DNA from: Nitriliruptorales bacterium
GTDB lineage: Bacteria; Actinomycetota; Nitriliruptoria; Nitriliruptorales; Nitriliruptoraceae
Reading direction: 5' to 3'
Length of the DNA: 40,228 nucleotides
NCBI GenBank assembly: GCA_024637135.1
Contig: JAGXFT010000096.1
Location: 1-40,228 of the forward strand
Position 1 is the first letter of the stretch, and every line of letters starts with the position of its first letter. Below the pieces are notes generated by a model. That model saw nothing but the letters and a program-made list of their open reading frames with translations, made no database searches and was not told the origin of the DNA. Below are positions 1 to 33,379 of this stretch, piece by piece. Position numbers and translations under genes: made by a program.

Positions 1-270
1 GAAGTCCAGCGCCGCCCCCTTCGCGACCCCGTGGCCGGCGAAGAACAGCACCAGTCGCTCGACGTCGCCGGCGTCCACGGCCTGTTGCACGGCGGCATAG
101 ATCGCGGCGGCCGCGACGGTGGCACCGTCGTCGTCGACCAGGGCGGTGACCTCGTAGCCGTCGGCCTCGGCCCAGGCGGCCGCGCGGCGGGCATCGCTGC
201 GAGCCCCCGGGAGTTCCGGGAGGTCGCCCGACGCCCCGACGCCGATCACGATCGCCACCCGACGAGTCAC
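1..270 (-). CDS. caspase-like (peptidase C14) protein, N-terminal part
   Basis: The gene runs off the left edge, so only the first 90 residues are visible. From a GTG start they read MTRRVAIVIGVGASGDLPEL, then a conserved PGARSDA stretch and the block LVLFFAGHG near residue 80. Both the N-terminal strand with 'LPGA..DA' and the 'FFAGHG' motif carrying the catalytic His are hallmarks of the caspase/metacaspase fold; the catalytic Cys would lie outside the window. There is no signal peptide, so the protein is probably cytoplasmic. It follows the lipoprotein gene after about 40 bp on the same strand and is probably co-transcribed with it and the CHAT gene. I see no strong ribosome site, so the exact start is less sure than the family. 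Confidence 0.85.
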   Translation of the reverse strand, partial: MTRRVAIVIGVGASGDLPELPGARSDARRAAAWAEADGYEVTALVDDDGATVAAAAIYAAVQQAVDAGDVERLVLFFAGHGVAKGAALDF

Positions 271-1793: not shown

Positions 1794-4283
1794 TCACGAC
1801 TCGGCCGGATCGCAGGTCGCGCGATCGCGTTGGCTCGTGAGCCGGTCGCGGTCGTCGGTCGTCGCCACCAACTCGATCGCGCGGTCGAAGGCCTCGCCAG
1901 CCGCCGCCACGTCACCCCGGTCCAGGTGGAGGCAGGCCAGCGACTCCCACTGGAGCGCCTCCCGAGCGTCCGTCGTCGCCAGGGTGATGGCCTGCTCGAG
2001 GTGGGGGACGGCCGCGTCGAGGCGGCCGTCGAGTTGCCAGGCCTGGATGGCGAGCAGCCCGTGCGCCAACCCGGCCAGCCCACGAACCCGGTCGTTGCCG
2101 TCGGCCTGGGCCGTCACCACCCGCCCGAGCGCGACGGTGGCATCGATGTCGGGGACCAGCCCGGCCCCCTGCTGGCACAGGGCCAGCCGCCCGCGGGCAT
2201 AGTCGACCTTGCGTGCCACGTCGGCGTCGTCGGGCGTGGGCACCGGCACGGCCGCGAACGCCCGGTCCGCCTTCTCCAGGCCGTCCGCGTCCACGGTGGC
2301 GGCGGTGCAGGAGCCGCGACTGCTGTCCCACGCCACCTCCGCCAACCCGTACCGCGCGCGGGCGCTGTCGGGGTCCAGGGCCAGCGCGGCCTCGTAGTGG
2401 TCGCGGGCGGCCTCGTCGTCGCCGGCCTGGGCCGCTGCCTTGCCCCGGAACACCTCCAGCACCGCGCCCGCCTCACCGCCACCCCACACGTCCACCGACA
2501 TCGCGGCGTCGAAGCGTTGCCCGGCACCCACCGGGTCACCCGTGGCGAACAGGCTCAGGCCGGCCACCAGGTCGGCCAACGCGCCCGTGCGTTCGACCGC
2601 GACCTGCTCCAGGTCGGCCACGTCGGTGACCGCGGCCGGACGGAACCGTTCCGGTGGGCCCAGCGGATGGGACCCGGTCAACTCGGTCGCGGCCAGCAAC
2701 CGCCGGTCGGCGATCCAGACCGTGGGGACGAAGCGGGCTCCGTTGCGGTCACCCTCCAACCGGGCCGAGACCACGACGTCGGCCCGGAGGTCGGCGGCCA
2801 CGGCCTCGGCGGCACTGGCGCGTGCCTCATCGTCGTCGCCGTCCACGGTGCCGACGTCGCCCGGGCCCCGGAACTCCACGGACACCCCCGTCTCGGCCTG
2901 GTCGAGGTCGGCCACCAGCGCGTCGTACACCTGGGTGGACAACTCGGCGGCCTGACCCTCCAGCCCGGGATCGCCGGTGAAGGTCGCCACGGCCACGTTG
3001 AAGCCCAGTTCGCCCATCGGTGCCGGCCCTCGCACCAGCGGGCCCACGACCTGCCACAGGACGACCAGGCTCGCCACGACCGCCAGTGCGGCGGCCATGC
3101 CGGGCACCGGGTTGTCCAGCGGCCAGCGCCACCACGGGGCCGGCTCCTCGAGGACCGGCGTCAACAGTGCCACCTCGCGTGAACGCAGCCAGCACACGGG
3201 CAACGCCATGTCGGTGGACACCCCCGGCTCGTTGACCCCGATCAGCCGTCGCGCGTCGGTCAGCGCGACGTCCACGGGGCGCAGGTCAGCGATGGCCGCG
3301 TAGAAGTCCCGCGCGACCTGGATGGCGAGGTCGTCGGCGACCGCGGTCTGCATCCCGACCAGCGCCGGCACGCGCGCCCCGTGGACCAGCGCGCGGGCGA
3401 AGTCGTCGGTCCCGTCGGTCCCCGGCTGCAGTGCGCCGCAGACGTTGAGGAACACCAGCGACAGGTGTTGGTCGGCGACCAGGTCCCGCAGTTGGCCGGG
3501 GGAGACGTCGACGGGGCCGTGCCAGTCGTCCTCCAGCACCACCGTGGGGGTTCCGTCGGCGGTGCGGCGGCCGTGGCCGACGAGGTGGAGGACGTCGACC
3601 CCACCGTCCTCGCGCAGCGCATCCAGCAACCTCGGCACGGTCGCACGCTCCAGCGTCGACACCGACAACCGACCCTCGGCCACCAGCGGCGCCAACTCCT
3701 GTCGGATCGCCGCGACCTCGGCCGTGCCGTCCAACTCGTCGACCCCGTCGGGCCCGGCCACCGCCACCAGCACGCGCACCGGCGGGGTGGCGGTCACGCC
3801 CCGGGCGACGCCGTCGACGTTGAGGTCTCGCACCAGCGGGCCGCCGAGCGCGCAGAAGGCGTCCTCGACCGGGTCATGGAGGAGTTCCCACGGCAGTCGG
3901 GCGACCGCCGCATCGTCCATGACCAGTCGAAGTCGCACCTCCTCGTCGGTCCGGGCCCGCCGCCAAGCCGTCGCCATCGCGGTCGTGAACAGGGCGGCGA
4001 AGAGCCGGTCCCCCACCTCCACCGCGCCGCCGTGGGCCTCCAGGCCGTCGAGGTCCGCCAGGCCCAGCAGGTCGTCGTCGACGACGAGTTCCCCGAGTTC
4101 GGTGACGCCACCCTCGACCCGCAGCGTGACCGTTCGCGACGATGTCGTGGCCGCAGTGAGGTCAGGCTCGGTCGCGGCCGATGCGTCGGGGTCGACGTCG
4201 GGCGTGGCCGCGGCGGGCGTGGCCGGCTTGTCGGGATCCGGACCGGCACCGCGAGCGAAGACGTGGACCTCGACGTCGCGCAT
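1794..4283 (-). CDS. membrane CHAT-domain protease with extracytoplasmic TolB-like and TPR region
   Basis: An 829-residue protein. I chose the ATG at 4283 because GGGAGGTGG stands just before it and the open frame further upstream has no protein-like composition. Order: flexible Ala/Pro/Asp-rich N-terminus (about 8-48), a beta-rich region, the CHAT protease core (about 165-370) with His237 in LVGHG and Cys282 in LNVCGA, a single membrane helix (about 394-415), a segment of about 425-560 that starts NVAVATF like TolB-type sensor regions, and TPR-like helices to the end (the best repeat contains DEAARDHYEAALALDPD). CHAT domains are caspase-related cysteine proteases. One helix after the CHAT domain puts the protease inside and the TPR part outside. 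The gene is followed by a lipoprotein and a caspase-like gene, which suggests a signalling cascade. Target and trigger are unknown. Confidence 0.85.
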   Translation of the reverse strand: MRDVEVHVFARGAGPDPDKPATPAAATPDVDPDASAATEPDLTAATTSSRTVTLRVEGGVTELGELVVDDDLLGLADLDGLEAHGGAVEVGDRLFAALFTTAMATAWRRARTDEEVRLRLVMDDAAVARLPWELLHDPVEDAFCALGGPLVRDLNVDGVARGVTATPPVRVLVAVAGPDGVDELDGTAEVAAIRQELAPLVAEGRLSVSTLERATVPRLLDALREDGGVDVLHLVGHGRRTADGTPTVVLEDDWHGPVDVSPGQLRDLVADQHLSLVFLNVCGALQPGTDGTDDFARALVHGARVPALVGMQTAVADDLAIQVARDFYAAIADLRPVDVALTDARRLIGVNEPGVSTDMALPVCWLRSREVALLTPVLEEPAPWWRWPLDNPVPGMAAALAVVASLVVLWQVVGPLVRGPAPMGELGFNVAVATFTGDPGLEGQAAELSTQVYDALVADLDQAETGVSVEFRGPGDVGTVDGDDDEARASAAEAVAADLRADVVVSARLEGDRNGARFVPTVWIADRRLLAATELTGSHPLGPPERFRPAAVTDVADLEQVAVERTGALADLVAGLSLFATGDPVGAGQRFDAAMSVDVWGGGEAGAVLEVFRGKAAAQAGDDEAARDHYEAALALDPDSARARYGLAEVAWDSSRGSCTAATVDADGLEKADRAFAAVPVPTPDDADVARKVDYARGRLALCQQGAGLVPDIDATVALGRVVTAQADGNDRVRGLAGLAHGLLAIQAWQLDGRLDAAVPHLEQAITLATTDAREALQWESLACLHLDRGDVAAAGEAFDRAIELVATTDDRDRLTSQRDRATCDPAES

Positions 4284-6008: not shown

Positions 6009-6281
6009 TCAGCCGCCGGCGACCGCGGGCACGATCGAGACGACGTCACTGTCGCCGACGGCCGTGTCGAGGCCGTCCTGGAAGCGGATGTCCTCGTCGC
6101 GCACGAACACGTTGACGAACCGGCGCAGGTCGCCGCCCTCGTCCAGGATCCGGTCGGCCAGGCCCGGGTGGGCCGCGGTCAGGTTGGCGACGACCGTGCG
6201 CAGGTCGTCACCGGCGACGTCGACCTGCGACCGGCCGTCGGTCTGCTTGCGCAACGGCGTGGGGATGCGAACGGTGGGCAT
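6009..6281 (-). CDS. MoaD/ThiS-family sulfur carrier protein ending in Gly-Gly
   Basis: A 90-residue ubiquitin-fold protein: MPTVRIPTPLRKQTDG at the start, a central FVNVFVRDEDIRF strand segment, and the C-terminus VSIVPAVAGG. The exposed GlyGly is the site that an E1-like enzyme adenylates and converts to a thiocarboxylate, making the protein a sulfide donor. GAGGAG precedes the ATG. It lies downstream of the threonine-synthase-like gene on the same strand, and that gene carries a SAM riboswitch. Established parallels are CysO with CysM (cysteine synthesis) and the HcyS-type carriers of homocysteine synthesis. I infer that this protein supplies sulfur to the PLP enzyme next door. A molybdopterin role is less likely because no moa gene is nearby. 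Confidence 0.88.
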   Translation of the reverse strand: MPTVRIPTPLRKQTDGRSQVDVAGDDLRTVVANLTAAHPGLADRILDEGGDLRRFVNVFVRDEDIRFQDGLDTAVGDSDVVSIVPAVAGG

Positions 6282-6334
6282 GGTGGCTCCTCGGTGCGAG
6301 GTTGGTGGATGGTCACGTGAGGTGTTGTCGACGT

Positions 6335-6381
6335 CGGTCGTGGCGTGAGAACGAGCAACGCGAGTTCTCACGCCACGACCG
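6335..6381. other. perfect 18-bp inverted repeat (hairpin) between two co-directional genes
   Basis: CGGTCGTGGCGTGAGAAC at 6335-6352 is exactly complementary to 6364-6381, with an 11-base loop. It sits between the end of the PLP-enzyme gene (6406) and the start of the sulfur-carrier gene (6281), transcribed leftward. There is no clear T-run. It could act as a terminator, a processing or stability element, or a recoded repeat: its core (GAGAACGAGC...GCGAGTTCTC) recurs downstream of carD at 22325-22350. Confidence 0.85.
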
Positions 6382-6405
6382 AGCGCCCCAGCGCGAGGGC
6401 AGGCG

Positions 6406-7683
6406 TCACCCGAGGTGGGAGAGGAAGTCGTCGAGGCCGGGGCTGACCTCGAAGGTCGGCCCGACGCTGTCGGCGATGGCCTCGACGGTCTTGTAGCCGT
6501 TGCCGGAGATGACGGCGACGGTGCGTTCGTCGCGGGCGATGTGGCCGGACTCGACCATCCGCTTGAGGTTGGCGATGGTCACGCCACCGGCGGTCTCGGC
6601 GAACACGCCCTCGGTCTCGGCCAGGAGTCGGATACCCGCGATGATCTCGTCATCCGGTACGTGGCCGACCGCGCCACCGGTGCGGTCCGCGACCTTCAGG
6701 GCGTAGTAGCCGTCGGCGGGGTTGCCGATGGCCAGCGATCGCGCGATGGTGTCGGGACGCTGCGGCCGGACGTCGAAGGAGTCGCGTTCGAACGCCTCGG
6801 CGACCGGCGAACAGCCGGTGGCCTGGGCACCGGAGATGCGCGGGAGGTCGCCGTCGACCAGCCCGAACTCGCGGAACTCGCGGAAGCCCTTGTCGATCTT
6901 GACCATCATCGCACCCGAGGCGACCGGTGCGACGACGTGGTCGGGGAACTGCCACCCGAGCTGTTCGGCGATCTCGAAGCCGATGGTCTTGGAGCCCTCG
7001 GCGTAGTAGGTGCGGAGGTTGACGTTGACGAACCCCCAGCCCTTCACGTCGGCGACCTCGGCGCAGAGCCGGTTCACGTCGTCGTAGGTGCCGCGCACGG
7101 TCACCAGGTTGGGGCCGTGGACCGCCGAGCCCAGGATCTTGCCGGCCTCGAGGTCGGATGGGATGAACACGTAGGCGGGCGCGCCGATGGCGGCCGCGTG
7201 GGCCGACACCGAGTTCCCGAGGTTGCCGGTCGACGCACAGGCGAACGTGTCGATGCCCAGCGCGCGTCCGGCCGACAGCGCCACGGCCACGACCCGGTCC
7301 TTGAACGACCCGGTGGGGTTGTTGGTGTCGTCCTTGAGCCACAACTCGTCGAGGCCGAGGCGATCGGCCAGCCTGTCGGCCCGTCGCAACGGGGTCAGCC
7401 CGGTGCCGAGGTCCACCCGGTGGGCGGGGTCGGCCGACAGCGTGGGCAGGAGGTCCCCGTAGCGCCACAACGACGCCGGTCCGGCCTCGATGCGCTCGCG
7501 CGACACCACCGACGCGATCCGGTCGGTGTCGTAGACCACCTCCAACGGGCCGAAGCAGACGTCGCAGACGTGGCTGAGTCCGACCTCCACGACCTCGCCG
7601 CACTCCCGACAGGCCAGGCCGGTGAGGTTGGGGACCAGGGCGTCCGCATCCGAGGTGGTGGGGACGGCGATGGTGGCGGTCAT
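6406..7683 (-). CDS. threonine-synthase-like PLP enzyme under SAM riboswitch control; candidate O-phosphohomoserine-dependent homocysteine synthase
   Basis: A 425-residue fold-type II PLP enzyme of threonine-synthase length. An N-terminal zinc ribbon uses Cys25, Cys28, Cys40 and Cys43. PTGSFKDR places the PLP-binding lysine at residue 128, and the phosphate-cup motif STGNLGNS follows about 25 residues later. Threonine synthases convert O-phosphohomoserine to threonine. This copy is transcribed behind a SAM-I riboswitch and ahead of a GlyGly sulfur carrier, which points to methionine supply: the same phosphorylated substrate could take sulfide from the carrier to give homocysteine. I recall such a ThrC-like homocysteine synthase being reported from Streptomyces but cannot verify that here. 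GAGGAG precedes the ATG. The fold assignment is safe; the reaction is inference. Confidence 0.9.
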   Translation of the reverse strand: MTATIAVPTTSDADALVPNLTGLACRECGEVVEVGLSHVCDVCFGPLEVVYDTDRIASVVSRERIEAGPASLWRYGDLLPTLSADPAHRVDLGTGLTPLRRADRLADRLGLDELWLKDDTNNPTGSFKDRVVAVALSAGRALGIDTFACASTGNLGNSVSAHAAAIGAPAYVFIPSDLEAGKILGSAVHGPNLVTVRGTYDDVNRLCAEVADVKGWGFVNVNLRTYYAEGSKTIGFEIAEQLGWQFPDHVVAPVASGAMMVKIDKGFREFREFGLVDGDLPRISGAQATGCSPVAEAFERDSFDVRPQRPDTIARSLAIGNPADGYYALKVADRTGGAVGHVPDDEIIAGIRLLAETEGVFAETAGGVTIANLKRMVESGHIARDERTVAVISGNGYKTVEAIADSVGPTFEVSPGLDDFLSHLG

Positions 7684-7754: not shown

Positions 7755-7776
7755 GAGAACAACGCGAGGCGTCGAA

Positions 7777-7950
7777 GCTCATCGACCTCGGTCCCACGTG
7801 GTTCGTGGTTCCGACGGTCCGGGTTTGGCACCAACCCCACCGACCCGAAGCCTGGTCACGACGACCGGGACGTGACGACCAGGACACGAAGGAGATGGGA
7901 GGTTGCCGAGGTGTCTGCGGGCTCCGAGCCCTCGACCTCTCTGGATGAGC
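7777..7950 (-). promoter_or_regulatory. SAM-I (S-box) riboswitch aptamer
   Basis: Read leftward, the leader has the S-box elements in order: GCTCATC closing helix (7950-7944), CCAGAGAGGTCGAGGG, GAGCCC, CCTCGGCAACC (the conserved GGCAACC at 7907-7901), then GGTGCCAAACCCGGACC (7832-7816), matching the GGTGCCAA..CC element of P3, and GATGAGC (7783-7777), which pairs perfectly with the first helix. It is longer than average because of an insertion after GGCAACC. SAM-I riboswitches shut off sulfur and methionine genes when S-adenosylmethionine is plentiful. The regulated genes are the PLP enzyme and probably the sulfur carrier. Confidence 0.92.
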
Positions 7951-7962
7951 ACCAGTCGTTCC

Positions 7963-22380: not shown

Positions 22381-22884
22381 TCAGGCCTCGGCCAGCCCGT
22401 GCGCGTCGGCCAGCACCGTGTTGATCTGTTCCTCGGCGGCCTCTTCGTCGGTCTTCAGCGCGACCGAGAGTTCCGACAGCAGGATCTGCTTGGCCTTGGC
22501 CAGCATCCGGCGCTCCCCGGCCGACAGGCCCTTGCCGAACTCGCGGGTCGCGAGGTTGCGGACCACCTCGGCGACCTTGAAGACGTCACCGGAACGCAAC
22601 TTCTCCTGGTTGGCCTTGAATCGACGCGACCAGTTCTTGGCGGCCTTCCCCTCGGGCGACTCGAGGATCGCGAAGACCTCCTTGACCTGGGCGTCGCTGA
22701 CGACCTCACGGATCCCGACGCTGTCACAGGAATCGGTCGGCACCATGAGCGTGAGGTCGCCGTAGGTCATGCGAAGCACCAGGTAGTCCCTGGTCTCGCC
22801 CTTGAGTTCGCGCTGTTCGAGGGACTCGACGACCGCCGCACCGTGGTGGGGGTAGACGACGGTGTCACCGACGCTGTAGGCCAT
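22381..22884 (-). CDS. carD: CarD-family transcription regulator (RNA polymerase-binding)
   Basis: A 167-residue protein of mycobacterial CarD length. The N-terminal RNA-polymerase-interacting Tudor-like domain reads MAYSVGDTVVYPHHGAAVVE. The C-terminal helical DNA-binding domain includes 'AKNWSRRFKANQEKLRSGDVFKVAEVVRNLATRE', with the Trp (in NWSRR) that wedges into the promoter bubble. CarD stabilises open complexes at rRNA and many housekeeping promoters. AGGAG precedes the ATG. A promoter-like pair lies about 200 bp upstream. Confidence 0.96.
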   Translation of the reverse strand: MAYSVGDTVVYPHHGAAVVESLEQRELKGETRDYLVLRMTYGDLTLMVPTDSCDSVGIREVVSDAQVKEVFAILESPEGKAAKNWSRRFKANQEKLRSGDVFKVAEVVRNLATREFGKGLSAGERRMLAKAKQILLSELSVALKTDEEAAEEQINTVLADAHGLAEA

Positions 22885-23208: not shown

Positions 23209-24276
23209 TCAGGAGCCGTACGAGCTGACCATCGTCGCCTCGGCGCGTCGACGCAGGGCGTCGCGGATGCGGCGGGCTCGGGTCTCGCCGACGCCCTCCA
23301 CCGCCACCAGTTCCTCGACCGACGCATCGATGATGGGGCCGAGGCTGCCGAAGGTGGAGACCAGTCGGGAGATGATGTGGCTGGGCAGGCGGGGGACCTG
23401 GGACAACAACCGGTACCCGCGGGGCTGGACCGGCCGGTCGATGTACTCGACGTCGTAGGCCAGCGCGGCCGCCACGTTGTCGGGCGCCAGCAGTTCGTCG
23501 GTGGTGTAGCCGTCGAGCATGTCGCCGACCCCTTCCAGCGACCGCCGACGGTCGCCGAGGTAGTCCTGCACGATCAACAGGCGCTCGTCCTCCACCGACG
23601 ACATCAACTCGTCGAGCTGGAGCTTGATCAGCCGACCCTCGGTGCCCAGTTCCACGATCTGGTACTTGATCTCGTTGGCGATGCGGCGGACCATCTCGGA
23701 CCGCTGCAGGGCCAGGATGACGTCGCGCAGGACGACCGCGTCCTCGACCTCGCGGGACGACAGGTTCGCGGTGACCTCGTCCAGCCGGGCGCGGTAGCGC
23801 TCCAACGTCGACAGGGCCTGGTTGGCGCGGAACAACAGGTTGGAGACCGGCTCGATGACCCGGCGACGCTGTCCCCAGTACAGCGTGACCCGGCTCATGG
23901 ACTCCGACACCGACAGCACGGGGACGTTGGCCTGTTTGGCGGCGCGTTCCGCGGACCGGTGGCGGGTGCCGGTCTCGCTGGTCGAGATCGAGGCCTCGGG
24001 GACCAGGTGGACGTTGGCGCGCACGATGCGGGCGCCGTCGTCGGTCAGGATCAGGGCGCCGTCCATCTTGGCGAGCTCGGCGATCCGCTGCTCCGAGGCC
24101 GGCGTGTCGATCACGAACCCACCGGAGACCATCTTCTCGATGCCCTCGTTGTGGCCCAGCACGATCAGGGCGCCACGGCCGGCACCGATCACGCGTTCGA
24201 TGCCGTCACGAATGACGGTGCCGGGAGCCAGCCGAGCCAGGATCTGGCTCAACTGCTCGTCGTGTACTTCCTCCAC
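23209..24276 (-). CDS. disA: DNA integrity scanning protein / diadenylate cyclase
   Basis: A 355-residue protein of family length. It makes cyclic di-AMP from two ATP and scans DNA for branched structures. The DAC domain shows DGA at 72-74 and RHR at 105-107 (ETGTRHRSAERAA), both needed for catalysis. A helical linker follows, then a C-terminal helix-hairpin-helix ('VEGVGETRARRIRDALRRRAE') for DNA binding. The GTG at 24276 is preceded by GGAGAGGAG. radA, often next to disA, is absent; the upstream gene instead has only a RadA-like zinc finger on a helicase. Confidence 0.95.
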   Translation of the reverse strand: MEEVHDEQLSQILARLAPGTVIRDGIERVIGAGRGALIVLGHNEGIEKMVSGGFVIDTPASEQRIAELAKMDGALILTDDGARIVRANVHLVPEASISTSETGTRHRSAERAAKQANVPVLSVSESMSRVTLYWGQRRRVIEPVSNLLFRANQALSTLERYRARLDEVTANLSSREVEDAVVLRDVILALQRSEMVRRIANEIKYQIVELGTEGRLIKLQLDELMSSVEDERLLIVQDYLGDRRRSLEGVGDMLDGYTTDELLAPDNVAAALAYDVEYIDRPVQPRGYRLLSQVPRLPSHIISRLVSTFGSLGPIIDASVEELVAVEGVGETRARRIRDALRRRAEATMVSSYGS

Positions 24277-24545: not shown

Positions 24546-26096
24546 TCACGGGGCCTCCAGGTCGCGGTCCATCCACGCGGCGACGGTGTCGGGGCGGTCG
24601 GCGTCGACCTCGTCGACCCGCACGGCCACCGGCAGGACCTCGTCGAGGAACTCCTCGTGGGCGCCCCGCCCGGGATCCTCGTTGGTCCCGATCGCGTGGA
24701 CGATCAGCAGCCGGGCGACCCGGTCGTCGTCGGTCCGGCGCAGGACCCGTCCCAGCCGCTGGACCATCTGGCGTCGCGACCGGAAGGCGGCCAGCACCAC
24801 GGCCACGTCGGCGTCCGGCACGTCCACGCCCTCGTCCAGCACCCGGGGTGCGACCACGACCGAGAGGTTGCCGTTGCGGAACTGGGCCATCCGGATCCGT
24901 CGCCGGTCGGTCGCCAGGCCGCCGTGGATGGTCTCCGCCAACGGCCCGGCCGCACTCATCACGGCGGCGACCTGCTCGGCCTGGTCGACGGTGTCGCAGA
25001 ACACCAGGGTGCGGCGATCGTGGAGGCACGGCGCGATCGCGGCGGCGACGGTGAGTTTGCCCGCGGCCTGGGCGGCGGCGTCCCGGCGGGCCCGCAGTCG
25101 CACGAGGTAGTCGCGGGCCACGGCCACGACCGGGTCGTCGCGCCGCCGGGCGCCCGACTCGGCCTGCCCCATCACCTCCACGGCAGCACGCAGGGTCTCG
25201 CGTGGGTGGCGGGGCAGGCCGTGGTCGAGGAGGGCTTGGCGGGCACGGCGAGCCCCCTGGTCGGCGGCGTCGTACTGGGCCTGCTCGTGGTCGTCCAGGC
25301 GGGTGCCGACCAACGCGATCGCGAACGGCGCGATCACCCGGTCGGCCGCCGCCTGGGCGTACCCGTACTCGGCCACCACGCCCCCGAAGTACGGGCCCAG
25401 CACCTCCACGACCCCGTCGTCCCCACGTTCGTAGGTCGCGGTCAGCGCGAGCCGCATGACGTAGTCGTCGCGCAACGCCTGCGACCAGGTCGGCGCGCCG
25501 TAGCGATGGGCCTCGTCCGCCACCAGCAGTCCGAGTTGCCCGTCACGGGGCACGATCGGGACGTCCGCGGCCGAACTGGGCGTCGCCACGACGACGTCGT
25601 ACTCGCCGAAGTCGTCGCTGCGGCCCCCACCCAGTTGTCCGACCCGCGCGTCCGGCGCGTGCGCCTGCAACTCGGTCCTCCACTGGCCCAGCAGTTCCAG
25701 GGTCGGCACCAGCACCAGCGCCACCCCGCCGCGCCGGACGACGACCCGCACGGCCGCCATCGCCAGCCGGGTCTTTCCGGCACCGGTGATGGCCTCGACG
25801 ACGCCGCGGCACCCGGCGGTGGCCCACGCGGCGAAGGCGTCGACCTGCCAGTCCCGCAGGTCGAGTCCGTCCAGCGGCCCCAGTGGACCGTCCGTGGCCG
25901 GGTCCGGCGCCGAGCGCGCGCCCTCCTGGTCGGCCGCGCCACCCCGACCGGCCGTCACGCCACGACGCCCACGGTCGCCCGACGGATCGACCTCGTCGAC
26001 CTCGCCCCACGCGCCGCAGCCTGCGCACTGGCCGACCCACTGCGTCGACGGTCGCCCACAGGCATCGCACCGCCACCCCGGCGCTGTCGACGCCAT
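24546..26096 (-). CDS. SF2 helicase (XPB/type III restriction-like) with N-terminal RadA-type zinc finger
   Basis: A 516-residue protein. Residues 9-31 (WRCDACGRPSTQWVGQCAGC and on) form a four-cysteine finger (Cys10, 13, 24, 27), and the W-VGQC--C-AWG-VDEV pattern is that of RadA. After a flexible linker (about 37-75) comes an SF2 helicase: Walker A GAGKT at 105-109, DEAH at 194-197, 'LALTATYER' at 216-224, 'TLVFCDTVDQAEQV' from 363, 'LDEGVDVPDADV' at 420-431 and the arginine-finger motif QRLGRVLRR at 446-454. The second lobe looks like XPB/UvsW-type enzymes. The RecA/Lon-like parts of RadA are missing. ATP-driven DNA remodelling in repair is likely. The ATG at 26096 has a weak ribosome site. 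It follows the M16 pair by 52 bp. Confidence 0.85.
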   Translation of the reverse strand: MASTAPGWRCDACGRPSTQWVGQCAGCGAWGEVDEVDPSGDRGRRGVTAGRGGAADQEGARSAPDPATDGPLGPLDGLDLRDWQVDAFAAWATAGCRGVVEAITGAGKTRLAMAAVRVVVRRGGVALVLVPTLELLGQWRTELQAHAPDARVGQLGGGRSDDFGEYDVVVATPSSAADVPIVPRDGQLGLLVADEAHRYGAPTWSQALRDDYVMRLALTATYERGDDGVVEVLGPYFGGVVAEYGYAQAAADRVIAPFAIALVGTRLDDHEQAQYDAADQGARRARQALLDHGLPRHPRETLRAAVEVMGQAESGARRRDDPVVAVARDYLVRLRARRDAAAQAAGKLTVAAAIAPCLHDRRTLVFCDTVDQAEQVAAVMSAAGPLAETIHGGLATDRRRIRMAQFRNGNLSVVVAPRVLDEGVDVPDADVAVVLAAFRSRRQMVQRLGRVLRRTDDDRVARLLIVHAIGTNEDPGRGAHEEFLDEVLPVAVRVDEVDADRPDTVAAWMDRDLEAP

Positions 26097-26148: not shown

Positions 26149-27552
26149 TCACAAGTCGTGGCGCACGACCTCGCCCCAGTCCAGGGCGACCAGGTCGGGC
26201 TCGATCTCGGCCGCGTCCCCGACCGCCACCACGACGACGTCGTCGGTGGACAGGTGGCGTCGCGCCGCCCGGACGACGTCGCCGGGCAGGGCGGATCGCA
26301 GGGCGGCGAGGTGCGCGGTGGTGTGGTCGGGTGGCAGGTCGTCGCCCAGGTTTCCGGCGACCGTGCTGGCCAGTGCCCGCGGGGTCTCCAGCGACAGCGG
26401 GATGACCCCGGCGAGGTAGTCCGCGGCGCCGGCCACCTCGTCCGGGGTGGGCCCGTCGGCCGCCAGCGCCGCGACGTGCTCGCGCACCAGGGCCAGCGCG
26501 TCGCCGGTGGTCGGCGTGTCGAAGGAGCCGCTCGCGAGCATGAACAGTCCACCTCGGCGGAAGGCCTGGAGGCTGGAGCGGACGCCGTACGTGTAGCCCT
26601 TCTCCTCGCGCAGCACCGCGTCGAGGCGCGACGTCAGGGGACCGCCCAGCACGTGGGCCAGCAGCCTTGTCGCGGCCCGGTCACGGGCATGGGTGTCCGG
26701 GCCCGGCCGCAGGACCCGCAACTCGGTCTGGACCGCACCCGGGTGGTCCACCACGACCAGGCGTGGACCGGGCACGAGCCGCAACGGGTCCGCGACCGTG
26801 GCCGGGCGACTGGTTGGCCCGAGATCCCCCAGGTGGCGGTCGACGAGGTCCACCACGTCGACGTGCGACAGGTTGCCGGCCACGACCACGTCCACCGGGC
26901 CGGTCAGCAGCACGTCCGCGTGGTGGGCGACGAGGTCCTCGCGGCGCAGGGCCGCCATCGTCTCGTCGTTTCCGCCGGTGGGCAGGTGAGCCCGGTGGTC
27001 GGCCGCCACCGCCACCTCGCGGGTCGCGATGCTCGCCTTGCCACCGGGGCTCGCCAGTTGTTGGACCAGGCGGTCACGGCGCTGCCCAACCAGCCGGGCC
27101 ACGTCACGCTCGGGGAAGGTCGGGGTCAGCAGCGCCTCGGCCACCAGGTCCAACCCGGACGCGAGGTTCTCCAGCGGCATCGTGACCGAGACCCGCACGC
27201 CCCCGAAGGACGCGCCGGGTGACCAGTCGGCGCCGATCCGGTCGAGCGCGGCCGCGAAGGTGTCGCCGTCGTGGTGGGCGGTGCCCTCGTCCAGCGCCCG
27301 GGCCGTGATGGTCCCCACACCTTCCAGCCCCCGGGGTTCGGTCGTGACCGGGGCGTCCAGCAGCACCGTGACGGTCACCAGTTCCCGGCCCGGAAGGTCG
27401 AGGCTGTGGACAGTCAGCCCGGAGGCCGCGGCCTCTCTGCGCACGGCCGGCAGGGCCCACGGTTCGGGGGCGCTGACGACCGGTCGCGGGACCGTCGTGT
27501 TGTCGGGACGGTCCGGCACGGCCTCCGGCGTGGGCGTCGTCGAGGTACTCAT
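26149..27552 (-). CDS. M16 family peptidase-like protein without the zinc motif
   Basis: A 467-residue protein of the M16 fold (insulinase/mitochondrial processing peptidase). The characteristic C-terminal half is present: 'GPLTSRLDAVLREEKGYTYGVRSSLQAFRRGGLFML', matching the 'G...SRL...lRe..G..Y.v' motif. At the place of HxxEH it has 'ITARALDEGTAHHDGDTF', so no zinc can be held and it should be the inactive partner. It overlaps the active M16 gene (ATGA), as in other bacterial M16 pairs that work as heterodimers. Residues of about 1-40 are a Pro/Thr-rich extension. Confidence 0.9.
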   Translation of the reverse strand: MSTSTTPTPEAVPDRPDNTTVPRPVVSAPEPWALPAVRREAAASGLTVHSLDLPGRELVTVTVLLDAPVTTEPRGLEGVGTITARALDEGTAHHDGDTFAAALDRIGADWSPGASFGGVRVSVTMPLENLASGLDLVAEALLTPTFPERDVARLVGQRRDRLVQQLASPGGKASIATREVAVAADHRAHLPTGGNDETMAALRREDLVAHHADVLLTGPVDVVVAGNLSHVDVVDLVDRHLGDLGPTSRPATVADPLRLVPGPRLVVVDHPGAVQTELRVLRPGPDTHARDRAATRLLAHVLGGPLTSRLDAVLREEKGYTYGVRSSLQAFRRGGLFMLASGSFDTPTTGDALALVREHVAALAADGPTPDEVAGAADYLAGVIPLSLETPRALASTVAGNLGDDLPPDHTTAHLAALRSALPGDVVRAARRHLSTDDVVVVAVGDAAEIEPDLVALDWGEVVRHDL

Positions 27553-28811
27553 GCCACGTTCCGATAGTCGAGGATGCCGCGGTGGTCGGGCCCCAGCCAC
27601 GTGGCCACGGCGGCCGACACTCGCTCGCCGGTCACCGCACGGAGTCGGTCACCGGCGTGGTCGCCCCACGTGGCGTCGTCGAACAACGCGACCCCGCGGG
27701 CGTGGTCGTCGGCCCGGCCCATCAGCGTGGCGCGGGTGTCGAGGCGGTCCCGGCGGAGGCGTTCGCTGGCGCGGACCACCTCGTCGTCGGTGGGCGGCTC
27801 GGCGGCCAGTCGGGCCACCTCCTCGTCCACCACCATGCCCAGGTCGTCGAGGTCGCGGCCGGACCGCACGCGCGCGACCAGCGTCGCGACGTCCACCCCA
27901 CCGACCATCTCGAAGGTGCCACCCGAGATCGCCTCGGCCACTTCCTCCTCGCGGACCGCACGTCGGACCAGGCGGCTCGCGCCGCCACCGGCGAGCACTT
28001 CGAAGGCCACGACCAGCGCGTCGTGGTCGGCGTGGCCATCGGGCGGCACCCGCCAGGTCTGGTATCGCGACGCCGCAGGCACGACCTCGTCGGACACCAG
28101 GACCTCGCTCGCCTCGAGTGGCCCGATCGAGCCGTCCGGCGCGGCCGGTGGGGCAGCGTTGCCGCTGATGCCGCCGAAGATCCGCTGGGCGGCCTCCACG
28201 CCCTCGGTCACCGACACGTCGCCGGCGATGGACAGGACCGCGTTGTGGGGGCTGTAGTGGGTGAGGAAGAACCGGTGGGCATCCTCCAGGCTGGCCGCGT
28301 CGAGGTGCTCCATCGACCCGATCGGCAGGTGGCGGTACGGGTGGCCGGCCGGGAACAGGATCGTGAACAGTTGTTCCCACGCGGTGCCGTAGGGCTGGTT
28401 GTCGTAGCGCTGGCGACGTTCGTTCTTGACGACGTCGCGCTGGTTGTCGAGGTTGGGTTGGTCGAGCGCGTCGAGCAGGGTTCCCATGCGGTCGGCCTCC
28501 AACCACAGCGCCAGTTCGAAGGCACGAGTCGGGACCGTCTCGAAGTAGTTCGTGCGGTCGAACGAGGTGGTGCCGTTGAGCGTGCCACCGACCGACTGGA
28601 TCGCGGCGAAGTGGCCGGTGCCGTCGACGTTGCGCGACCCCTGGAACATCAGGTGCTCGAACAGGTGGGCGAACCCGGTGCGGCCCGCCTCCTCGTGTCG
28701 CGAGCCGACGTCGTACCAGGCCTCCACGGCCACGGCGGGCACGAGGTGGTCCGGCGCGACCACCACGCGCAGGCCGTTGGCGAGGGTCGTCGTGACCGGG
28801 GCGGCGGGCAT
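27549..28811 (-). CDS. M16 zinc peptidase, active subunit
   Basis: A 420-residue metallopeptidase. The inverted zinc motif HLFEH is at 49-53 ('GFAHLFEHLMFQGS'), with the third ligand in the 'VVKNERRQRYDNQPYG' region. The N-terminus 'TTLANGLRVVVAPDHLVPAVAVEAWYDVGSRHE' is the standard M16 start. It is presumably cytoplasmic, since no signal peptide is seen, and pairs with the downstream inactive subunit. GGAGG stands 6 bases before the ATG at 28811. TACCTT at 28891-28886 could be its -10 box. Substrate unknown; members range from peptide clearance to processing of ribosomal peptides. Confidence 0.92.
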   Translation of the reverse strand: MPAAPVTTTLANGLRVVVAPDHLVPAVAVEAWYDVGSRHEEAGRTGFAHLFEHLMFQGSRNVDGTGHFAAIQSVGGTLNGTTSFDRTNYFETVPTRAFELALWLEADRMGTLLDALDQPNLDNQRDVVKNERRQRYDNQPYGTAWEQLFTILFPAGHPYRHLPIGSMEHLDAASLEDAHRFFLTHYSPHNAVLSIAGDVSVTEGVEAAQRIFGGISGNAAPPAAPDGSIGPLEASEVLVSDEVVPAASRYQTWRVPPDGHADHDALVVAFEVLAGGGASRLVRRAVREEEVAEAISGGTFEMVGGVDVATLVARVRSGRDLDDLGMVVDEEVARLAAEPPTDDEVVRASERLRRDRLDTRATLMGRADDHARGVALFDDATWGDHAGDRLRAVTGERVSAAVATWLGPDHRGILDYRNVA

Positions 28812-28991
28812 TGGGCCTCCAGGGGCCGGAGTGAACTGGCTGCGAACCGACCGGGTCACGACCGGCGCACCAATGGCGACCGGTCAAGGTACTCCCCACC
28901 CCGGCGACGCTGCCCCGCCCAAGCCCTTCCTGTCGACGGCACCATCCTCCTTGACGCCCCCGGCCCCGATCCGCCGTCGAGGGTGACGGGC

Positions 28992-31511
28992 TCAGCCCGT
29001 ACGGATCGCGTCCAGCGGGTCGAGGCGAGCGGCGCGGCGGGCGGGGTAGATCGATGCCAGCACGCCGACCACCACGCCGAGCACCAGGGTGATGCCCAGT
29101 TCCAGCCACGGCCACGTGAACGCGCCTTCCAGCACGACCCGGGCCACGGCGAAGGCGACACCCACACCCAGCACCGCGCCGACCACGGTCCCGACGATCG
29201 AGATCACCAACGCCTCGGTGCGGATCATGCGCCGCAGTTGGGGCCGGTTCATCCCGACCGCACGCAACAACCCGAGTTCGCGCGTTCGCTCGGCGATGGC
29301 CAGCACCAGGGTGTTGAGGATGCCGAAGAGCGCGATCACGACCGCGACCCCGAGCAGTCCGCCGACGGCCGACAACAGGAAGGTGAAGAACGACCGCACG
29401 AGCGACACGATCTGGTTGGCATCGATCACCTCGACACCGGCGTACTCGCCGGTCACGTCCTCGACCGCCGACCGGGTGGCCGCCAGGTCGACGCCGTCGT
29501 CGTAGCGCACGGCCAGCGAGTAGACCGGCTGCGGCCCGATCGCGTCCGCGACCACCTGGGCGGACAGCACCGCGGGCGGGATGTCGAAGCTGAACCCGGT
29601 CAGGGCGGTGACCACGACGTCGACGGTCTCGTCCCCCACCAGCGTGACCTCGATGGTGTCACCCAGCGCGATCCCGGCCGGCCCGGCCAGTTCCCCGGCC
29701 AGCGCGATCCCGTCCTCGTCCAGGTCACCCTCAAGGATGTCCAGTCCCAGGACCGGTTCGAGCAGCGACAGGTCGGTCGCGGCGACCGGCAGCGCGGACC
29801 CGAACGGCGAGCCCGTGTCCAGTTCGACCTGGCCGACGACGGTGTTCACCTCGGCGACCTCGGCCACGCCGTCCACGGCGCGGACGTCGTCGGCCAGGCC
29901 GTCGGGCACCGGGTCACTGCCGCTGGCGCTGATCGACGCGTCGGCCCCCGCCAGCTGTTCGAGTTGACCGATCGCGAAGTCGCGGATGGCGCCACCCGCG
30001 GAGGTCACGAACACCACCAGGAAGACCCCGATCACCAGGGCGTTGGCGGTGGCGGCGGTCCGACGGCTGTTGCGCTCGACCTCGGCCACGGCCAGTTCGT
30101 CGGCGGCCGACCCCCGCGCCAGCGGCCCGCGAAGGCGGCGTGCGACCCAGGCCACCACGGCCGGGCCACCCACGACCACGCCGACCAGCAGCAGGGCCGG
30201 ACCGAGCCCCAGCAACCAGGCGATCTCGCCGATCGAGCCCGCCACCAGCGCGACCACGCCCAGCGCCAGCAACGCGATCCCGGTGATCGTGCGCCCGACC
30301 GACACCGGCTTGGTGGTCGGGTCGGCGTCACGCATCGCCTCGACCGGGCGCGTCCGCGACGCTCGCCAGGCGGGGATGAACGCGCTGACCAGCGTCACCA
30401 CCACCCCGGACGCCACCACCTGCAGCATCGACAGGGGGGCGATCGTCAGGCTGGCGAGGTTGCGCAACGACGGGATCAACGCGATCGCGACGCCGACGAG
30501 CAGCACCCCCAGCAGCGCACCCACGACCGACGCCACCAGCGACACGACGAACGCCTCGATCCGGACGGCCCGTCGGACCTGCCGCGAGGAGGTCCCGAGC
30601 GCCCGCAGCAACGCGAACTCGCGTGTGCGCTGGGCCACGATCGTGGTGAAGGTGTTGAAGATGATCAGGGCCCCGACGACCAGGGCGAGGTAGGCGAAGG
30701 CCTGCAGGCCGATGCCCAGCGCGTCGGCGAACCCGGCGGCGGCACCGGCCTCGCGATCACGAAGTTCGTCACCGCTGAGCACGTCGACGGGCTGGTCCCC
30801 GGCGGCGGCACCCGCGGCCGTGGCGATCCGGTCACGGACCGTGGCGGGGTCGGCACCGTCATCGGTCGCGGCCAGCACGGTGTCCCACCCGATGTCGTCC
30901 AGGGTGGTCCAGGTGGCTGCGTCCACCTCGGGGACCAGCACGTCGGCACTGCCCCGGGCGGCCTGGTCGCCGAAGCGTGACAGCCCCACCACGGTGGCCT
31001 GCACGGCCCCGGCGCGCGAGGCCATCGTCACGGTGTCGTCCACGCCCACGCCGGCCGCGGCCGCGAGGTCCGTGTCCAGCACGACCTCACCCACGCCCGT
31101 GGGCAGGCGACCCTCGCCAACCTCCCACGGCGTCAACGGGTCGTCGACCACGACCCATGCGGTCGCGTCGAACTGGTTCACCCCGTCCACCACCACGGCC
31201 GTGCCGCTGGCCTGGCCGATGGCCGACGTGACGCCGTCCACCCCGGCGACCGCGTCCACGACCTCTCGAGCGAGTCCCGGCGGCTCCAGCCCGAACGCGG
31301 CGGTCGGGTCCGTGTCGTCGACGAGCGGCTCGACGGCCGCGTCGACGTCGCCCAGCGCGGCGACCGCGTTGGCGGTCAGCGCGTCGGCCAACGAGTCCCG
31401 CAGCACCAGGGCCGTGGACAGGAAGGTCGTCGCCACGACGACGGCCAGCAACGTCCCGATGAACCTCGCCGGGTTGGCGCGCACCGAACGCCAGGCGATG
31501 GTGGCCAGCAT
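28992..31511 (-). CDS. ABC transporter permease, FtsX/MacB type, two FtsX domains
   Basis: An 839-residue membrane protein. A first helix ('FIGTLLAVVVATTFLSTALVL') leads to a MacB-type extracytoplasmic domain (about 40-260). A three-helix FtsX block follows, containing 'FNTFTTIVAQRTREFALLRALGTSSRQVRR'. A central pair of helices, a second external domain and a second FtsX block ('LNTLVLAIAERTRELGLLRAVGMNRPQLRRMIR') complete it. The double-FtsX layout is common in Gram-positive lipoprotein or antimicrobial-peptide transporters. Its ATG shares one base with the stop of the ATPase gene (TGATG). Confidence 0.92.
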   Translation of the reverse strand: MLATIAWRSVRANPARFIGTLLAVVVATTFLSTALVLRDSLADALTANAVAALGDVDAAVEPLVDDTDPTAAFGLEPPGLAREVVDAVAGVDGVTSAIGQASGTAVVVDGVNQFDATAWVVVDDPLTPWEVGEGRLPTGVGEVVLDTDLAAAAGVGVDDTVTMASRAGAVQATVVGLSRFGDQAARGSADVLVPEVDAATWTTLDDIGWDTVLAATDDGADPATVRDRIATAAGAAAGDQPVDVLSGDELRDREAGAAAGFADALGIGLQAFAYLALVVGALIIFNTFTTIVAQRTREFALLRALGTSSRQVRRAVRIEAFVVSLVASVVGALLGVLLVGVAIALIPSLRNLASLTIAPLSMLQVVASGVVVTLVSAFIPAWRASRTRPVEAMRDADPTTKPVSVGRTITGIALLALGVVALVAGSIGEIAWLLGLGPALLLVGVVVGGPAVVAWVARRLRGPLARGSAADELAVAEVERNSRRTAATANALVIGVFLVVFVTSAGGAIRDFAIGQLEQLAGADASISASGSDPVPDGLADDVRAVDGVAEVAEVNTVVGQVELDTGSPFGSALPVAATDLSLLEPVLGLDILEGDLDEDGIALAGELAGPAGIALGDTIEVTLVGDETVDVVVTALTGFSFDIPPAVLSAQVVADAIGPQPVYSLAVRYDDGVDLAATRSAVEDVTGEYAGVEVIDANQIVSLVRSFFTFLLSAVGGLLGVAVVIALFGILNTLVLAIAERTRELGLLRAVGMNRPQLRRMIRTEALVISIVGTVVGAVLGVGVAFAVARVVLEGAFTWPWLELGITLVLGVVVGVLASIYPARRAARLDPLDAIRTG

Positions 31512-32287
31512 CACTGTGAACCCAGTTGCTTCATGCGGTCCAGCACCGTGTCGGTGGTGGGGTCCAGCAGTTCGCCGACCAGCGCGCCGTCCCGCAGGAA
31601 CACCACCCGGGACGCGAACGAGGCCGCCCACGGGTCATGGGTCACCATCGCCACGGACTGGCCCAGGCGCTCGACCGCATCGGCCAGGAAGCCCATGATG
31701 GCGTCGGAGGCGACGGAGTCGAGGTTGCCGGTGGGCTCGTCGGCCAGCACCAGGTCCGGCCGCGTCACCAGGGCGCGCCCGACCGCGACGCGTTGCTGCT
31801 GCCCACCGGACAGCTCGCTCGGGCGGTGGTCGAGCCGATCCCAAAGGCCCAGCACCTCCACGACCTGGTCGACCCAGGCCGGGTCCGGTTCGGCGCCGCC
31901 CAGCTTGGCCGGCAGCACCAGGTTCTCGCGGGCGTCCAGCACCGGGACCAGGTTGAAGGACTGGAACACGAACCCCAGCCGGTCGCGACGCAACCGGGTA
32001 AGGGCCTTGTCGGCCAACCCGGTGATCTCCTCGTCGCCGATGAAGACCCGCCCACTGGTGGGGCTGTCGAGACCGGCCATGCAGTGCATCAGGGTCGACT
32101 TGCCGGACCCGGACGGCCCCATGATGGCCGTGAACGTCCCCCGGGCGAACCCGATCGAGATGTGGTCGACCGCGGTGACGGCGCCGTCACCGGAGCCGTA
32201 GACCTTGCTGAGGTCGTACGCGCGGGCCGCGTACTCCTGCGAGGCGTCGTCGATGGTCGGCTGGGGAACCGTCGGGGTGGCGGTCAT
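31511..32287 (-). CDS. ABC transporter ATP-binding protein, MacB/LolD type
   Basis: A 258-residue ATPase for the permease gene that overlaps its end. Walker A GPSGSGKS is at 57-64, the Q-loop in 'GFVFQSFNLVP', the signature LSGGQQQR at 159-166, Walker B 'LVLADEPTGNLD' at 179-190 and the switch 'MVTHDPWAAS'. The 'FQSFNLVP.L.A.EN' and 'DEPTGNLD' patterns place it in the MacB/LolD group, whose permeases have the FtsX fold. CGGAG precedes the ATG. No membrane-fusion protein or two-component system is next to it. Confidence 0.95.
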   Translation of the reverse strand: MTATPTVPQPTIDDASQEYAARAYDLSKVYGSGDGAVTAVDHISIGFARGTFTAIMGPSGSGKSTLMHCMAGLDSPTSGRVFIGDEEITGLADKALTRLRRDRLGFVFQSFNLVPVLDARENLVLPAKLGGAEPDPAWVDQVVEVLGLWDRLDHRPSELSGGQQQRVAVGRALVTRPDLVLADEPTGNLDSVASDAIMGFLADAVERLGQSVAMVTHDPWAASFASRVVFLRDGALVGELLDPTTDTVLDRMKQLGSQ

Positions 32288-32446: not shown

Positions 32447-33379
32447 TCACGCGGGCAGCCGGAGGTGTCCCCCGTCCGCGACCGCCAGGCCGTCGACGAC
32501 CAGGCCGTCGACCATCCGGGTGACCCGATCGGGGTCCTCCCACCCCACCACGGCGCGGACGTCGGCGCGCGCGACCGGGCCGATGGCCAGCGCGGCGACC
32601 AGGCGGCCCCGGCCCTGGCGGTCCGACCCCTCGAAGGTCGACTGCGGCGTCGACACGCCGGCCGTGGTGCCGGCCGGGTCCTCACCACCGGTCCGCTGCC
32701 ACATGCAGGCGTGGGCGACCAGACAGTCGTCGCACCGCGGTGCGCGTTTCACACACGTGGTCGCGCCGTGCTCCATCAGGGCCTGGTTCCACGCCCACGG
32801 CCGCCCGTCGGGCACCAGGTCGTCGGCCAGGTCCTGCACGGTGGCCCGGTCCATCGGGGCACCGGCCACCGCTCGCGCGAGCACCCTGGCGATGTTGGTG
32901 TCGACGACCCCGTGGTGGCGTTCGTGGGCGAACACGGCCACGGCCCGGGCGGTGTAGGGCCCGACCCCCGGCAGGGCGAGCAGGTCGTCGAGGTCGGTCG
33001 GGACCCGGCCGCCGTGCTCGCTGGTGACCACGCCCGCGGCGCGGTGGAGGTTGACGGCCCGACGGTTGTAGCCCAGCCCCTGCCAGTGCGCGATCACCTC
33101 ACCGACGGGCGCAGCCGCGCAGGCAGCCGGGTCCGGGTAGTCGTCGAGGAAGGCGTGGTAGCGCGGGACGACACGGCTGGTCTGGGTCTGCTGCAGCATC
33201 GTCTCGGACACCAGGATCGACCAGCCGTCCCGGGTGTCACGCCACGGGAAGTCACGCAGGTGGGGCACTCGCGACAGGATCCCGGCGACGAACGCCGCCC
33301 GGTCCGCGTCGACCTCGACCGGGCCACCCCGGCGGTCACCGACCAGGTCGGCGTGGTTCGCGGTGGTCCCCGCGGTCAC
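32447..33379 (-). CDS. mutY: A/G-specific adenine DNA glycosylase, short form
   Basis: A 310-residue repair enzyme that removes adenine paired with 8-oxoguanine. Glu59 ('SETMLQQTQTSRV') and Asp160 ('VVDTNIARVLAR') are the catalytic pair. The helix-hairpin-helix 'LPGVGPYTA' is at 136-144. Four cysteines (209, 216, 219, 225; spacing 6-2-5) hold a 4Fe-4S cluster. The Nudix-like 8-oxoG recognition domain is replaced by a tail of about 60 residues, as in other short actinobacterial MutY proteins. The GTG at 33379 overlaps the dtxR stop (GTGA). Confidence 0.93.
   Translation of the reverse strand: MTAGTTANHADLVGDRRGGPVEVDADRAAFVAGILSRVPHLRDFPWRDTRDGWSILVSETMLQQTQTSRVVPRYHAFLDDYPDPAACAAAPVGEVIAHWQGLGYNRRAVNLHRAAGVVTSEHGGRVPTDLDDLLALPGVGPYTARAVAVFAHERHHGVVDTNIARVLARAVAGAPMDRATVQDLADDLVPDGRPWAWNQALMEHGATTCVKRAPRCDDCLVAHACMWQRTGGEDPAGTTAGVSTPQSTFEGSDRQGRGRLVAALAIGPVARADVRAVVGWEDPDRVTRMVDGLVVDGLAVADGGHLRLPA

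Follow-up and report, generated by a model that had tools for sequence, protein, structure and literature searches.

Comparison of genome sequences shows that an XPB-like helicase is present instead of a lost radA gene in several lineages of the class Nitriliruptoria. In the genus Salsipaludibacter, a RadA finger and a linker replace the winged-helix-like domain that the relatives carry on the same helicase core. Our literature search found no report of the replacement of RadA by this helicase.

The DNA analysed here (the window, 40,228 nucleotides) is from a close relative of Salsipaludibacter albus in the class Nitriliruptoria, whose assembly consists of 213 contigs and is 88% complete. The finger-helicase gene and the parts of its product are located in the window as follows.

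24546..26096, minus strand: finger-helicase gene (516 amino acids; ATG at 26096, stop codon at 24546-24548)
26001..26075, minus strand: C4 zinc finger of RadA type (residues 8-32; CxxC-x10-CxxC with WVGxC; PF18073)
25875..25985, minus strand: variable linker (residues 38-74; indels between the two species in the alignment)
24549..25874, minus strand: XPB-like SF2 helicase core (residues 75-516; ResIII, Helicase_C, and ERCC3_RAD25_C)
25770..25787, minus strand: Walker A, TGAGKT (residues 104-109; identified in the translation, unchanged in S. albus)
25506..25517, minus strand: Walker B, DEAH (residues 194-197; identified in the translation, unchanged in S. albus)
24735..24761, minus strand: motif VI, QRLGRVLRR (residues 446-454; identified in the translation, unchanged in S. 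albus)

A RadA-type finger on an XPB-like helicase core

The earlier note had read the N-terminus of the protein as a RadA-type C4 finger, and the profile searches agreed. The Pfam model Zn_ribbon_LapB (RadA/LapB C4 finger, PF18073) matched residues 8-32 above its cut-off (26.7 bits, E 4e-6), and the RadA model TIGR00416 covered residues 1-37 only, with 23 bits vs. a cut-off of 403. When the RadA of genome G016, the nearest complete one within the family, was compared with the window by tblastn, we obtained a 39-residue match at the finger (54% identity, E 8e-9) and no other significant match in the region. In both searches, the RecA-like ATPase, the KNRFG motif, and the Lon-like domain were absent from the window protein, whereas RadA/Sms has all of them.

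The remainder is an XPB-like helicase, as the same note had held. ResIII (residues 78-224), Helicase_C (residues 359-454), and ERCC3_RAD25_C were detected above the Pfam cut-offs, and the SF2 motif set (Walker A, DEAH box, motif VI, and two RecA folds) is complete. Among solved structures, archaeal XPBII and RAD25/XPB come nearest (E 1e-32 to 1e-29); XPBII chain 6p4f aligns over residues 76-463 (E 1e-32). A structure predicted from two sequences had a mean pLDDT of 44 and was left out of the fold searches. An ERxDD stretch after TAT in the window helicase presumably resembles the RED motif of XPB. The N-terminus of XPB differs from the finger and from the winged-helix-like domain; unlike XPB, the Nitriliruptoria helicase begins with one of these two domains and is mutually exclusive with RadA. 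The overall plan is that of RadA/Sms, namely an N-terminal C4 finger, a variable linker, and then a DNA motor, encoded beside disA in the same slot, but an XPB-like helicase of SF2 serves as the motor in place of a hexameric RecA-like ATPase.

The scores of the characterized helicase families stayed below their cut-offs: 99.8 bits vs. 610 for bacterial XPB (NF045503), 30.4 bits vs. 720 for RadD (NF053632, which covers the C-terminal helicase half only), and 140.1 bits vs. 600 for the Dnd restriction model TIGR04095 (dnd_restrict_1). RadD (YejH) of E. coli is likewise related to XPB, belongs to SF2, and has a zinc finger, and it is a RecA accessory that speeds RecA strand exchange (PMC8887467); unlike that of RadD, the finger of the window protein is N-terminal and of the RadA type. 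PADLOC PbeA (E 3e-59) and NCBIfam dnd_restrict_1 rank among the best family matches, and the DndI/PbeA phosphorothioation restriction helicases have a similar helicase core, which would fit a phosphorothioation-type or Dnd/Pbe-type defence helicase that had come to lie at disA. We consider such an origin very improbable, because the dnd_restrict_1 score is far under the cut-off, no DndI/PbeA-type partner genes were recognised when the neighbourhoods of the helicase were read, and the helicase persists in a housekeeping operon throughout a family. A search of plasmids gave three weak relatives of the helicase, none of which reached the finger.

The isolate genome of S. albus encodes the same finger-helicase, with 79-81% identity over residues 1-515. 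In that genome, translation can only begin with the finger, because a stop codon precedes the GTG start by two codons. An assembly or sequencing error that fused two genes, a concern of the earlier note to which the fragmented assembly of the window lends some colour, is ruled out by the identical fusion in the isolate genome, where the in-frame junction and the finger are conserved; we give it practically no weight. The finger-helicase pair thus occurs beyond one strain. Between the window protein and S. albus, all four cysteines and the W-V-G-x-C motif of the finger are kept, dN/dS of the finger is about 0.25 (35 codons, two species), and differences are more frequent at synonymous than at nonsynonymous sites (p 0.002). 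These values are modest evidence for purifying selection on the finger between the two species, in a weak test with two sequences only and with a dN/dS of the linker as low as that of the finger.

The finger is carried by just two genomes, both of Salsipaludibacter; as far as genome data reach, the fusion is a domain swap known in that genus only. The window finger is most similar to the finger of the RadA of G016, the only genome of the family designated f1 with radA still in the slot. The finger may therefore be a remnant of a radA gene formerly at that place, and the simple reading of its origin would be a fusion of the helicase core to what had been the 5' end of radA. We only infer this origin, because none of the remaining radA sequence was found around the finger-helicase gene.

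The slot ahead of disA

The neighbouring genes in the window are listed below.

22381..22884, minus strand: carD, the conserved downstream neighbour (CarD domains)
23209..24276, minus strand: disA, diadenylate cyclase gene directly downstream of the helicase gene (NF010009, 436.8 bits; DAC, DisA-linker, and HhH)
26149..28811, minus strand: two M16 peptidase genes, found between mutY and the helicase gene only in Salsipaludibacter
32447..33379, minus strand: mutY-like DNA glycosylase gene (HhH-GPD), usually just ahead of radA or the helicase gene in relatives

The order of genes at the slot is mutY-[radA or helicase]-disA-carD. Genome G016 has ClpC..mutY-radA-disA-carD, and G038 is alike, with one extra gene after mutY. 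The order ClpC-DtxR-mutY-helicase-disA-carD is found in G012, G005, G013, G010, G029, G033, and G018, and mutY-helicase-disA-carD in G017 and G006. Only in Salsipaludibacter is there an insert between mutY and the finger-helicase gene (26149-32287, minus strand), comprising an ABC transporter and the two M16 peptidase genes. The f1 helicase gene often starts within a few bases of mutY. RadA copies stand beside disA in 19 of 21 cases, and genome G046 has two radA-disA pairs (L085 and L096). The helicase gene lies directly ahead of disA in 27 of the 31 f1 genomes that encode it; in two of the other four the region is broken by contig ends, and in the remaining two (genus g5) the slot is empty and the helicase gene is elsewhere.

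The adjacency to disA in the 27 f1 genomes, together with the inhibition of DisA by RadA that PMC8645862 reports and cites for B. subtilis and mycobacteria, would be compatible with a helicase that is mainly a DisA regulator, binding DisA at branched DNA and controlling c-di-AMP synthesis, with recombination secondary. We regard this as improbable: in f4, f5, and g5 the helicase gene is away from disA although disA is present, and the finger of B. subtilis RadA is dispensable for DisA inhibition, since the finger mutant C13A has lost RecA binding and still binds and inhibits DisA (PMC8645862).

Elsewhere in the window, a SAM riboswitch (49.1 bits; 7776-7951, minus strand) lies ahead of a gene for a PLP-dependent enzyme (6009-7683, minus strand), which has an N-terminal zinc-ribbon-like stretch and is followed by an apparent small ThiS/MoaD-like gene. 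A CHAT-TPR protein (1794-4283, minus strand) is encoded next to a cut-off open reading frame (1-258, minus strand) that is caspase-like by eye.

Distribution and history of RadA and the helicase

Among 66 genomes of the class Nitriliruptoria, 39 encode the helicase (G009 being counted from a fragment), 20 encode full-length RadA, none encodes both, and 7 encode neither; the last are 53-78% complete. Each of the 33 high-quality genomes (completeness of 90% or more, contamination of 5% or less) has exactly one of the two, the helicase in 20 and RadA in 13 (Fisher p 2e-9, a statistic that ignores relatedness). A search for radA elsewhere, as the earlier note had advised, found no complete copy in the genome of the window (88% complete) or in that of S. 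albus (97% complete). As controls, RecG was present in 66/66 and disA in 58/66 genomes of the class, so patchy presence is no general trait of these genomes; RecA was found in all six genomes checked. The recA matches of G016, G012, and G065 are split within open frames of 1159-1326 residues, a pattern that an intein would produce, and the RecA proteins of Salsipaludibacter and G063 are uninterrupted.

The usual description of RadA is that of a protein conserved across almost all bacteria. Of 300 high-quality Actinomycetota genomes, 86 (about 29%) lack it, which exceeds what that description implies. Most of these RadA-less genomes do not have this helicase, so the loss of RadA need not be compensated. 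Outside the class, the Actinomycetota sample contains the helicase family in just 10 genomes, at about 40% identity; nine of them also have RadA, and in the six examined the helicase gene is not beside disA. Within the class, the exact complementarity needs explaining, and a shared function is the simplest explanation.

On the DisA tree, the RadA-bearing G001 and G016 branch first, followed by g5, by Salsipaludibacter, and last by 25 other f1 rows; the support is 99/87 for Salsipaludibacter with the 25 f1 rows and 100/97 for the 25. Four switches between RadA and the helicase are needed on this tree, and three of them are forced by well-supported branches. One switch is inside f1, where G016 has RadA, and another is inside genus g35, where G063 has RadA and G062, G064, and G065 have the helicase. 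All three independent pairs go opposite ways (p 0.25), a number of comparisons with which significance is out of reach. On the helicase tree, the slot helicases from the remaining f1 genomes unite (93/99), and the placement of Salsipaludibacter, g5, and f4+f5 lacks resolution. A single clade of all slot helicases including Salsipaludibacter gave an AU p of 0.378, so one and two invasions of the slot are alike compatible with the data.

In place of the finger, the helicases of g5, f4, f5, and the relatives in the slot begin with a domain of about 65 residues, winged-helix-like on reading, and several distant relatives of the helicase have a comparable short N-terminal domain. The domain had no significant match in Pfam or PDB; its best full-length match was to Z-DNA-binding domains (E 0.06), and one member matched HARE-HTH (E 0.02). 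It is probably DNA-binding. The earlier note had proposed that a different helicase took both the finger and the place of RadA. The place is indeed the radA slot of the relatives, but a single event does not hold: the gain of the slot and the gain of the finger are two distinct events, because most relatives in the slot carry the winged-helix-like N-terminus and not the finger.

The possible role of the helicase in recombination

We put at about even the chance that the window gene is a replacement for RadA and that the helicase took over the post-synaptic role of RadA. The helicase would then be an ATP-driven translocase on branched recombination intermediates that acts after strand invasion by RecA and does the job of RadA in D-loop extension or branch migration. 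In Salsipaludibacter, the finger would dock the helicase on RecA. In pneumococcal RadA, interaction with RecA and oriented loading depend on the four cysteines, and the linker between finger and motor is non-conserved (PMC5512693). The loss of RecA binding in B. subtilis C13A, with DisA inhibition retained, also makes RecA the likely target of the finger. By analogy with these data on the RadA finger and with the precedent of RadD, a RecA-docked D-loop translocase is favoured.

Alternatively, the helicase may be unrelated to RadA in function, serving XPB-type repair or general duplex opening; radA would have been lost, the slot entered by chance, and the finger would be an alternative DNA-binding tip. 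The frequent absence of RadA from high-quality Actinomycetota genomes is consistent with this, as are the XPB repair helicases being the closest structures, the position of the finger where relatives have a probable DNA-binding domain, and the DNA binding and branch migration defects of the E. coli RadA finger mutant C28Y (PMC4786428). We consider this alternative rather unlikely, since it leaves the complementarity in 33 of 33 genomes and the shared slot without explanation.

Returning to the replacement of RadA, the position ahead of disA suggests co-expression with the diadenylate cyclase, which senses branched DNA, and perhaps a contact between helicase and DisA, the least certain step; it is gene order that points to the DisA link. 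The full proposal is that the Salsipaludibacter protein is a natural chimera in which the RecA-docking finger of RadA, retained from the displaced radA gene, recruits an unrelated SF2 motor to D-loops made by RecA, and that across much of Nitriliruptoria a second, non-homologous post-synaptic motor takes the role of RadA and couples recombination to DisA. We hold this proposal tentatively, with somewhat less than an even chance.

Evolution appears to have swapped the motor of RadA, and one genus kept the finger. A natural domain swap could reveal how the work of RadA is divided among its finger, motor, and Lon-like ring. The link between RadA and DisA becomes testable in a system with another protein as the partner. 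Should the swap prove functional, no more than the finger would be required for recruiting a motor to RecA, and a hexameric ring would not be needed.
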